Shown here piece by piece: positions 20,167 to 57,619 of a DNA stretch of 64,000 nt. Below the pieces are notes generated by a model. The model was not told the origin of the DNA. It made no database searches and saw nothing but the letters and a program-made list of their open reading frames with translations. The position numbers and the translations under genes are program-made. Location of the stretch: the NCBI GenBank assembly GCA_003278685.1, contig QCDS01000003.1:22401-86400 (forward strand), written 5' to 3'. This DNA comes from Prochlorococcus sp. AG-355-K03. GTDB taxonomy: Bacteria; Cyanobacteriota; Cyanobacteriia; PCC-6307; Cyanobiaceae. The first letter of the stretch is position 1. Every line of letters begins with the position of its first letter.

Positions 20167-20258
20167 AGGAGCATCCTTTTCATTAATTACTTATTAGTAG
20201 TACTATTCAATATGTAATTCTATTTAAGATTACTACTTCAGTTGAATATTTTTTGAAT

Positions 20259-54645: not shown

Positions 54646-55788
54646 TTGATGATTAATCCATATAAGAAAAACGCGAAATTAGTATTAAGTAATGGAATTG
54701 TATTCCCAGGATTCTTTTTTGGTGCTTCTGGTACAGCCATGGGTGAAATAGTTTTTAATACGGGTATGACTGGATATCAGGAAGTTATTACTGATCCAAG
54801 TTATTTTGGACAAATATTAACATTCACTTATCCAGAAATTGGAAATACTGGTATCAATTTCGAAGATTCAGAATCTAATATTAATGTTAAAGGAATAATT
54901 GTTAGAAATTTTTCATCTAATAGCAGTAATTGGAGATCTAAAAAGAATTTTAATCAGTGGTTAGTTGAGAAAAATATCATAGGTCTATATGGAATTGATA
55001 CAAGGGCTCTTGTTAAAATTTTAAGATCTAGTGGTGCTATGAATGGAGTTATTACCAACCTAGATACAAGTGATGAAAGTTGTTTAAAAATAATTCAGGA
55101 TACGCCAAAGATGGAGGGATTAAACTTATCAAAAGTTGTTTCAACAAAGCAACAATATTTATGGCAAAGTCATACGCACACAATTTTTGATTTAAGAAAA
55201 AGATATGATGAATCTTCTAAAAAGTTAAAAATAGTAGCAATTGATTTTGGAATTAAAAATTCAATTCTAAATAGACTCGTATCCCATGGTTGTGAAGTTT
55301 TGGTTTTACCCTCTCGATCTTCTCTAAAAGATGTTCTTTCTAACAAGCCTGATGGTATATTTTTCTCAAATGGTCCAGGCGATCCTTCTTCTGTTTCTGA
55401 AGGTATAGTTTTAGCAAAATCACTAATTGAATATGGTGAAATACCTATGTTTGGTATTTGCCTTGGTCACCAAATATTTGGATTGGCATTAGGAGGTTCA
55501 ACTTATAAATTACCCTTTGGACATCGTGGTTTAAATCATCCTTGTGGTGAAAATAATAAAATTGAGATAACTAGCCAAAATCATGGTTTTGCTATTGATC
55601 CCAATTCTCTCTCAAAGGACATAGTTAGAATAACCCACTATAACCTTAATGATAATACTGTGGCTGGCCTAGAGGTTAATAATAAGCCTATATTTAGTGT
55701 GCAATATCATCCAGAAGCAGGGCCTGGCCCACATGATTCAGATTATTTATTTAAAAAATTTGTTTCTCTAATGTTAGAAAGATGTTGA
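54646..55788 (+). CDS. carA: Carbamoyl-phosphate synthase small subunit
   Basis: GEIVFNTGMTGYQEVITDPSYFGQI, MFGICLGHQIFGLALGG. Confidence 0.97.
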   Translation: MMINPYKKNAKLVLSNGIVFPGFFFGASGTAMGEIVFNTGMTGYQEVITDPSYFGQILTFTYPEIGNTGINFEDSESNINVKGIIVRNFSSNSSNWRSKKNFNQWLVEKNIIGLYGIDTRALVKILRSSGAMNGVITNLDTSDESCLKIIQDTPKMEGLNLSKVVSTKQQYLWQSHTHTIFDLRKRYDESSKKLKIVAIDFGIKNSILNRLVSHGCEVLVLPSRSSLKDVLSNKPDGIFFSNGPGDPSSVSEGIVLAKSLIEYGEIPMFGICLGHQIFGLALGGSTYKLPFGHRGLNHPCGENNKIEITSQNHGFAIDPNSLSKDIVRITHYNLNDNTVAGLEVNNKPIFSVQYHPEAGPGPHDSDYLFKKFVSLMLERC

Positions 55789-55849
55789 CATATTGTTTTC
55801 TTTTGATTTGATAATTACATTTGATATATTAATTTTTTGGAGGTATTAG

Positions 55850-56215
55850 ATCATAGAAGATTTCCAGAAGTTAACCGTTTCTTTAAGAGGAAACCTTGAG
55901 GTTACAGCGAACATTATGGTTTTTACTTTTAAAGGCCAACTTGATGCTTTCTCAGAAAAACAATTTAAGACTTTTGTTACTAATAATCTAAAAAATGGCC
56001 TTCCATTTATTATTGATCTTACAAAAATTGATTTTTTAGATTCCTCGGGTCTTGGAGCACTTGTTCAAACTGCAAAAGAATGCAAAAAATCGAAACTTGG
56101 GTTCTCTATCGTTGGCAATTCGAGAGTTGCCCAAACAATTAAACTTGTACGTCTAGGGGATTTTCTTAACCTGAAGTCAAACCTTGAGGATGCATTAAAT
56201 TATTTAAAGAATTGA
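55850..56215 (+). CDS. STAS-domain anti-sigma factor antagonist; track start 55916 extended to a non-canonical ATC (55850) or ATA (55853) codon
   Basis: STAS core MVFTFKGQLDAFSEKQFKTFV...IDLTKIDFLDSSGLGALVQTAKE; upstream in-frame codons encode IIEDFQKLTVSLRGNLEVTANI, homologous-looking; GGAGG at 55839-55843. Confidence 0.7.
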   Translation: MIEDFQKLTVSLRGNLEVTANIMVFTFKGQLDAFSEKQFKTFVTNNLKNGLPFIIDLTKIDFLDSSGLGALVQTAKECKKSKLGFSIVGNSRVAQTIKLVRLGDFLNLKSNLEDALNYLKN

Positions 56216-56610
56216 ATTATTGGATTCAAAACTTGGTTCCATATGGATCTCCCGAAGATATAGGTGTTATCCAACTTGCTTGGCTTGGAGATTCAGTATG
56301 GGAGCTCCACCAAAGACTAAGGCACGTTCATTTCCCTTTAAAATCTAAAGACCTCCATTTATCTGTAGTAAATGAAGTAAAAGCAAAATCTCAGTCAAAA
56401 TCATTAAGTCAAATTGAACATTTATTAAATTCAAATGAAATGGATCTAATTAGGCGTGCTAGAAATAAAACAAAGAGATATCCAAAATCTTCAGACCCCA
56501 CCATATACTCTAGAGCAACTGGTTTTGAAACTCTTATTGGCTGGCTATTTTTAAAAGATCCTCAAAGATTATCAACACTTTTTGAATATTTAGAATTAAA
56601 GATGAATTGA
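56212..56610 (+). CDS. mrnC: Mini-ribonuclease III-like protein (TTG start overlapping STAS stop)
   Basis: DIGVIQLAWLGDSVWELHQRLRHV, ARNKTKRYPKSSDPTIYSRATGFETLIGWLFL. Confidence 0.85.
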   Translation: MNYWIQNLVPYGSPEDIGVIQLAWLGDSVWELHQRLRHVHFPLKSKDLHLSVVNEVKAKSQSKSLSQIEHLLNSNEMDLIRRARNKTKRYPKSSDPTIYSRATGFETLIGWLFLKDPQRLSTLFEYLELKMN

Positions 56611-56614
56611 ATCT

Positions 56615-57619
56615 ATGAAAAACTCCTCAAATAAATTCCGCGGAAAAAATAAGAATGAGTACAAAAGAAATCCAGATTTTGGTTATTATTCAAAAAATAC
56701 AAATCGTTCAGAAAAAAATGATAAATTTTTGAACAATTCCTCTAAAAATAAGAAAGTTGAAAATTTAAAAAAAAATAATGAAAATAATACTTTTTCATCT
56801 TTAAAAAGAAGAAATCCAAGATATAAATTTAATTCAGAAATTCCTACTAAAAATTCTGATATGCATCAAGAGTTTCCTAAAAAGAGAAATTTTGATGATT
56901 GGATATGGGGTAAACATTCGGTTTACGAGGCTCTTAGTATTGATAGAGCGATTAATAGGATTTGGTGTACTTCGGAAATTTTTTCTTCTGACAAATTCTA
57001 TATTTTTCTTAAGGATCTTAAATCAAAAGGAGTTCTTATTGAAGAAGTCTCTTGGAACAGGCTTTCGCAATTGACATATGGTGCTTCACATCAAGGTATT
57101 GCATTGCAGTTAGCCTGCTCTAAAACAATATCCCTAGAAAAATTAATCGATTTTTCTAAAAATAATTGTCCAAATCCTATATTAGTCGCATTAGACGGTA
57201 TAACTGATCCTCATAATGTTGGCGCGATAATAAGATCAGCGGAAGCATTTGATTGCAAAGGTGTAATTATTCCTCAGAGAAGGTCTGCAGGATTGACTGG
57301 GACAGTCGCTAAGGTAGCTGCAGGAGCCTTAGAACACCTTCATGTTAGTAGAGTCGTTAACTTAAATAGAGCACTTGAGGAACTTAAGAGAAGTGGTTTT
57401 CTTGTTGTTGGCTTATCTGGAGATGGTCAAATGTCTATCTCAAATTTTCAAGAAAAAGCACCATTGGTTGTTGTAGTTGGCTCTGAAGATAAAGGTATTT
57501 CTTTGCTTACTCAAAAAAAATGCGATTTTATATTAAGTATTTCTCTTAAAGGTAAGACTTCAAGTTTAAATGCTTCTGTGGCGGCCGCTATATCTCTATT
57601 TCAATTGACAGGGAAATAA
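56615..57619 (+). CDS. rlmB: 23S rRNA 2'-O-methyltransferase, SpoU/TrmH family
   Basis: WIWGKHSVYEAL, VALDGITDPHNVGAIIRSAEAFDCKGVIIPQRRSAG, LNASVAAAISLFQL; Lys/Asn-rich N-terminal tail. Confidence 0.9.
   Translation: MKNSSNKFRGKNKNEYKRNPDFGYYSKNTNRSEKNDKFLNNSSKNKKVENLKKNNENNTFSSLKRRNPRYKFNSEIPTKNSDMHQEFPKKRNFDDWIWGKHSVYEALSIDRAINRIWCTSEIFSSDKFYIFLKDLKSKGVLIEEVSWNRLSQLTYGASHQGIALQLACSKTISLEKLIDFSKNNCPNPILVALDGITDPHNVGAIIRSAEAFDCKGVIIPQRRSAGLTGTVAKVAAGALEHLHVSRVVNLNRALEELKRSGFLVVGLSGDGQMSISNFQEKAPLVVVVGSEDKGISLLTQKKCDFILSISLKGKTSSLNASVAAAISLFQLTGK

Follow-up and report, generated by a model that had tools for sequence, protein, structure and literature searches.

In the window (the whole 64-kb stretch of DNA that was analysed), the gene for a STAS-domain anti-sigma factor antagonist very probably initiates translation at a near-cognate AUH codon (AUA, AUC or AUU), namely the ATA at position 55853. 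As judged by the aligned orthologs, the AUH start spans the whole class Cyanobacteriia and is not a peculiarity of the genome from which the window originates. AUH initiation is well supported by three observations taken together: the start has to be located upstream of a conserved LTVSLRG motif, a canonical start codon is lacking there in most genomes, and one single column of the alignment is consistently near-cognate. Conserved AUH starts are already known from infC, pcnB, ccpN and cvfC1. A search of the literature, covering openly licensed papers, did not disclose any report of an AUH start on this gene, nor any N-terminal peptide or ribosome-profiling data for the codon. If our reading is true, few non-canonical starts other than that of infC would be as widely conserved as the start of this gene, whose dosage is known to influence cyanobacterial growth at high CO2. 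Annotation pipelines that accept no start codon other than ATG, GTG or TTG would presumably misplace the STAS start. It would also link translation-initiation fidelity to sigma-factor control in major primary producers of the ocean, a connection that is testable.

Layout of the STAS locus

The features of the locus are given with their positions in the window.

54646..55788, + strand: carA, upstream of the STAS gene and encoding the small subunit of carbamoyl phosphate synthase (ORF and sequence; adjoins the STAS gene in many relatives of the family and class)
55803..55830, + strand: candidate promoter TTGATT-16-TATATT between carA and the STAS gene (consensus scan only; weak evidence)
55839..55843, + strand: Shine-Dalgarno (SD) sequence GGAGG (sequence; kept in Prochlorococcus)
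55847..55849, + strand: in-frame stop codon TAG (sequence; TAG or TAA in most Prochlorococcus loci)
55853..55855, + strand: proposed near-cognate start codon ATA (aligned codon ATA, ATC or ATT in 243 of 244 sequences)
55853..56215, + strand: STAS gene, anti-sigma factor antagonist, ortholog of ssr1600, 120 codons and stop (Pfam, TIGR00377, synteny, AlphaFold)
55916..55918, + strand: internal ATG (Met22), the earliest in-frame canonical codon; lacks conservation and is an unlikely start
56212..56610, + strand: mrnC-like gene (mini-RNase III), whose TTG start overlaps the STAS stop codon (ORF list; adjoins the STAS gene in most relatives checked)
56615..57619, + strand: rlmB/trmH-like 23S rRNA methyltransferase gene (ORF list; synteny)

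The stop codon of carA and the start codon of the STAS gene are separated by 64 bases, and the bases of this intergenic region are conserved within Prochlorococcus. The promoter scan gave a result near chance (two matches found versus 1.3 expected by consensus), and folding of the leader RNA revealed no signal (z -0.68). The GGAGG resides 6 bases before the ATC at 55850-55852 and 9 bases before the adjoining ATA. Since the TAG at 55847 is in frame, there is no start further upstream in the STAS frame. Behind this stop codon the frame reads ATC ATA GAA GAT TTC CAG AAG TTA ACC GTT TCT TTA AGA GGA, and after the ATA 20 more codons precede the ATG at 55916. An earlier note on this DNA, which had suggested a rare start codon, gave the positions of GGAGG, TAG, ATC, ATA and ATG correctly. 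Its statement that the upstream extension is devoid of ATG, GTG, TTG and CTG was also borne out, as none of the 22 codons upstream of ATG 55916 is one of these four.

As a control, 76 conserved, non-overlapping ORFs of the window were compared with stretches of G015 (1.6 Mb), a genome which we take to be that of Prochlorococcus MED4. The STAS gene was the only protein gene in this control whose strong conservation clearly precedes the first canonical start. One item ranked higher; it overlaps a tRNA-Pro. The next item (156-440) was judged to be a shadow ORF at the edge of the window, and lesser leads, e.g., at 20187 and 59478, contain interrupting stops in the relative.

Identity and structure of the gene product

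On the evidence of its sequence, the gene product is a single-STAS-domain anti-sigma factor antagonist and the ortholog of Synechocystis Ssr1600. The window protein passes the curated cut-offs of the STAS family PF01740 (67.8 bits versus 22.6; E 7.9e-19) and of TIGR00377, ant_ant_sig (63.1 versus 53.45), and its nearest structures by sequence are solved anti-sigma antagonists. The DSSG loop with the predicted phosphorylatable serine comprises residues 63-66 and is invariant in the alignment, as is LTVSLRG near the N-terminus in an alignment of 19 diverse proteins. Orthology is supported by the gene order carA-STAS-mrnC-rlmB, which is kept in part or as a whole in most loci across the class. 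Outside the class Cyanobacteriia, only weak STAS matches were obtained. The genome of the window contains one match to HATPase_c_2 (PF13581), and this Prochlorococcus protein might be the partner kinase of the STAS protein.

In the AlphaFold model (mean pLDDT 94.5), beta-1 is formed by residues 11-18 and beta-2 by residues 21-30. As beta-1 precedes Met22, a protein starting at ATG 55916 is predicted to lose this strand, which agrees with what the earlier note had claimed. SpoIIAA and other solved antagonists begin approximately 7-8 residues further in, so that the fold does not require the first residues, a point that speaks against the AUH start.

The start codon in related genomes

STAS orthologs were present in 73 of 101 genomes of the genus Prochlorococcus and were also located in 80 named contigs. 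In the class sample, which presumably includes two Gloeobacter genomes (L274 and L258), the gene was matched in all 145 genomes, the aligned codon being ATT, ATC or ATA. Among 244 distinct start regions, this codon was ATA in 131, ATT in 86, ATC in 26 and TTG in one, i.e., an AUH codon in 243 of 244 orthologous sequences of the class, counts which do not represent independent events since the sampling was uneven (101 Prochlorococcus-type sequences among the 244). This recurrence exceeds chance, and use of a rare start codon, as the earlier note had proposed, is thus very likely. The single TTG belongs to L424; no other ortholog was seen to have a canonical codon in this column, and L424 represents a natural variant for comparison. 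The STAS copy of L423 contains three in-frame TAG codons and may be a broken gene, an assembly error or a case of recoding.

The earlier note had left the choice between ATC and ATA. Only the ATA stood the comparison. The codon corresponding to ATC 55850 is GTC, ACC or CCC in relatives (e.g., ACC ATA in G015 and GTC ATA in G216), whereas the column of ATA 55853 stays AUH, which identifies the ATA as the start position and rules out the ATC. In the family outside Prochlorococcus, CCC or a similar codon precedes the aligned ATA, ATC or ATT. In Prochlorococcus loci the codon in front of the ATC is TAG, TAA, AAG, AAC, CAA, TTC or TTG. In these loci, most of the variation behind the ATA falls on third codon positions; no codon structure is visible in front of it. 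This variation and the invariant LTVSLRG mark the extension upstream of ATG 55916 as genuine coding sequence.

By parsimony on a tree of 240 proteins (FastTree), the start codon changed about 23 times, 22 times among AUA, AUC and AUU and once to a canonical codon, numbers that are rough since the tree rests on approximately 115 residues. On the same tree, neighbouring synonymous sites were much freer; 29 of 61, 17 of 59 and 7 of 33 changes led to or from G.

No ATG, GTG or TTG occurs between the upstream in-frame stop and the aligned codon in 180 of the 244 sequences. Within this group, 116 sequences are also without a canonical codon over the following 20 codons; for 55 of them this holds over the following 30. 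The other 64 sequences do have an in-frame canonical codon upstream, which is evidence to the contrary. In L206 and L208 (S. elongatus-like), an in-frame ATG is located 8 codons before the ATT, making a longer product possible. It is also possible that another near-cognate codon is infrequently used in single genomes.

The initiation signal

The alignment of orthologs revealed that not only the AUH position is kept but also the sequence element in front of it, the GGAGG being conserved in Prochlorococcus and a purine-rich SD peak being present elsewhere. Outside Prochlorococcus, upstream information is near zero save this peak, which covers -11 to -9 and has G in 95% at -10, and lesser peaks at -7/-6 and, with pyrimidines, at -2/-1. 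Information jumps at A+1 and T+2, and codon periodicity sets in only afterwards. Pyrimidines predominate at the two positions directly in front of the AUH codon: Prochlorococcus has TC there (55851-55852 in the window), and elsewhere position -2 is a pyrimidine in about 96%. These pyrimidines may belong to the initiation signal.

Proposed function of the AUH start

According to the mechanism that we propose, ribosomes would be positioned by the GGAGG and initiate with fMet-tRNA at AUA 55853 to give fMet-EDFQKLTVSLRG..., and selection would maintain the AUH identity (almost never AUG, GUG or UUG) throughout Cyanobacteriia. The weak pairing of the third base at AUH would probably render initiation inefficient and sensitive to IF3. 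The output of the antagonist, and hence the balance of sigma-factor partner switching, would then be low and may follow the stringency of initiation or the state of the ribosome. The conserved weak codon points to an ancient start signal that may be deliberately weak or adjustable. We tentatively suggest, as an extension which is possible if rather doubtful, that IF3 or the ribosome state is wired via the AUH start into sigma partner switching throughout the class, that translational status thereby tunes the growth/inorganic-carbon cascade, and that this device dates back to the ancestor shared by all living cyanobacteria.

A serious rival to IF3 control is a constant low level of the antagonist relative to the anti-sigma kinase, with the same start codon and without any response to IF3 or growth state. 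This explanation has a good, albeit less than even, chance of being correct. It agrees with the effect of Ssr1600 dosage in Synechocystis, where an excess slows growth in high CO2; loss of Ssr1600 rescues delta-rpoZ (PMC12329169). It also agrees with reporter assays in S. aureus, in which AUH starts yielded about 10% of what AUG did and the AUU start of cvfC1 did not respond to the medium (PMC13009471). However, the AUA start of ccpN was medium-responsive in the latter study. Moreover, the SD sequence of the STAS gene is strong and conserved. A UUG, a GUG or a weaker SD sequence would suffice for low output, yet nearly all orthologs retain AUH. A strong SD sequence combined with a class-wide near-cognate codon is no less consistent with regulation than with a start that is simply weak.

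Alternative origins of the N-terminus

We consider it very unlikely that the AUH codon encodes an internal isoleucine of a protein beginning at a canonical codon further upstream. ATA, ATC and ATT are exactly the isoleucine codons, and in the 64 sequences with an upstream canonical codon no stop intervenes. However, the 180 sequences without such a codon, many with an in-frame stop four codons upstream that overlaps the SD sequence, contradict this possibility for most genomes, and it is also opposed by the upstream bases, which display an SD sequence, no coding signal and a variable preceding codon.

The chance that a shorter STAS protein starts at ATG 55916, or at another downstream canonical codon, is slighter still. 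ATG 55916 is the first canonical codon, and the truncated protein is still recognized as STAS by Pfam (61.7 bits). Orthologs starting at an equivalent ATG, which the earlier note would have taken as evidence against its own proposal, did not emerge, though; in many close relatives this position is occupied by ATT, ATC, GTG or TTG, so that ATG 55916 cannot mark where translation generally begins in Prochlorococcus. Furthermore, the short product would be devoid of the invariant LTVSLRG together with beta-1, and 55 sequences offer no canonical codon either upstream or in the next 30 codons.

An N-terminus generated by sequencing error, stop readthrough or frameshift is practically negligible: a short open frame from TTG 55837 could in principle shift (+1) into the STAS frame, but the TGA of this alternative frame lacks conservation, the stop is TAG, TAA or absent, and a spacer of varying length prevents the upstream frame from being maintained. 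Moreover, hundreds of assemblies obtained independently show the same feature.

Comparison with known systems

The gene infC encodes IF3 and starts with AUU, AUC or AUA in E. coli, Streptomyces and S. aureus, and IF3 discriminates against such a start. The STAS gene shares with infC the conserved AUH codon and a good SD sequence. In contrast to the self-regulating infC, its product is a protein of the sigma network, and in Prochlorococcus infC itself (L175-L186) begins with an ATG that immediately follows an in-frame TGA. The classical AUU autoregulation thus seems to be absent there, which counts against the IF3 link. Some cyanobacteria other than Prochlorococcus (L189-L191) possess a second, IF3-like paralog with an ATC in a start-like context. 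In L190 and L191 no canonical start was found before the upstream stop, and this paralog may use an AUC start of the infC type. The pcnB gene of E. coli, for which a fixed low output has been proposed, resembles the STAS gene in that a gene outside translation is limited by an AUU start, but it encodes an unrelated protein and its conservation in a whole class is not shown.

Synechocystis Ssr1600 is an orthologous antagonist that shares the LDAFS and DSSG motifs. It binds to the anti-sigma kinase Slr1861, which phosphorylates it, and favours the formation of RNAP-SigC (PMC12329169). Residues L24 and D58 in the numbering of that study correspond to L30 and D64 when the close relative L295 is counted from the AUH codon. 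As the published numbers are lower by 6, the annotated and studied Ssr1600 probably starts 6 codons late and is 6 residues too short. The main text of the paper does not mention the start codon (PMC12329169).

In Streptomyces, and there only, sigR has a GTC start that is repressed by IF3 (PMC5472188). Both sigR and the STAS gene are sigma-regulatory genes whose output relative to that of a partner would be set by a non-canonical start with a strong ribosome binding site, but GTC is not an AUH codon and sigR encodes the sigma factor itself, not its antagonist. Closest in their signals are ccpN (AUA) and cvfC1 (AUU) of Staphylococcus, regulatory genes with a conserved AUH codon and a strong SD sequence (PMC13009471). 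Their starts were demonstrated experimentally, whereas the STAS start is deduced by comparing sequences. On the other hand, conservation extends from S. aureus to B. subtilis for ccpN and is found within staphylococci for cvfC1 (PMC13009471), while the AUH codon of the STAS gene appears to be class-wide.
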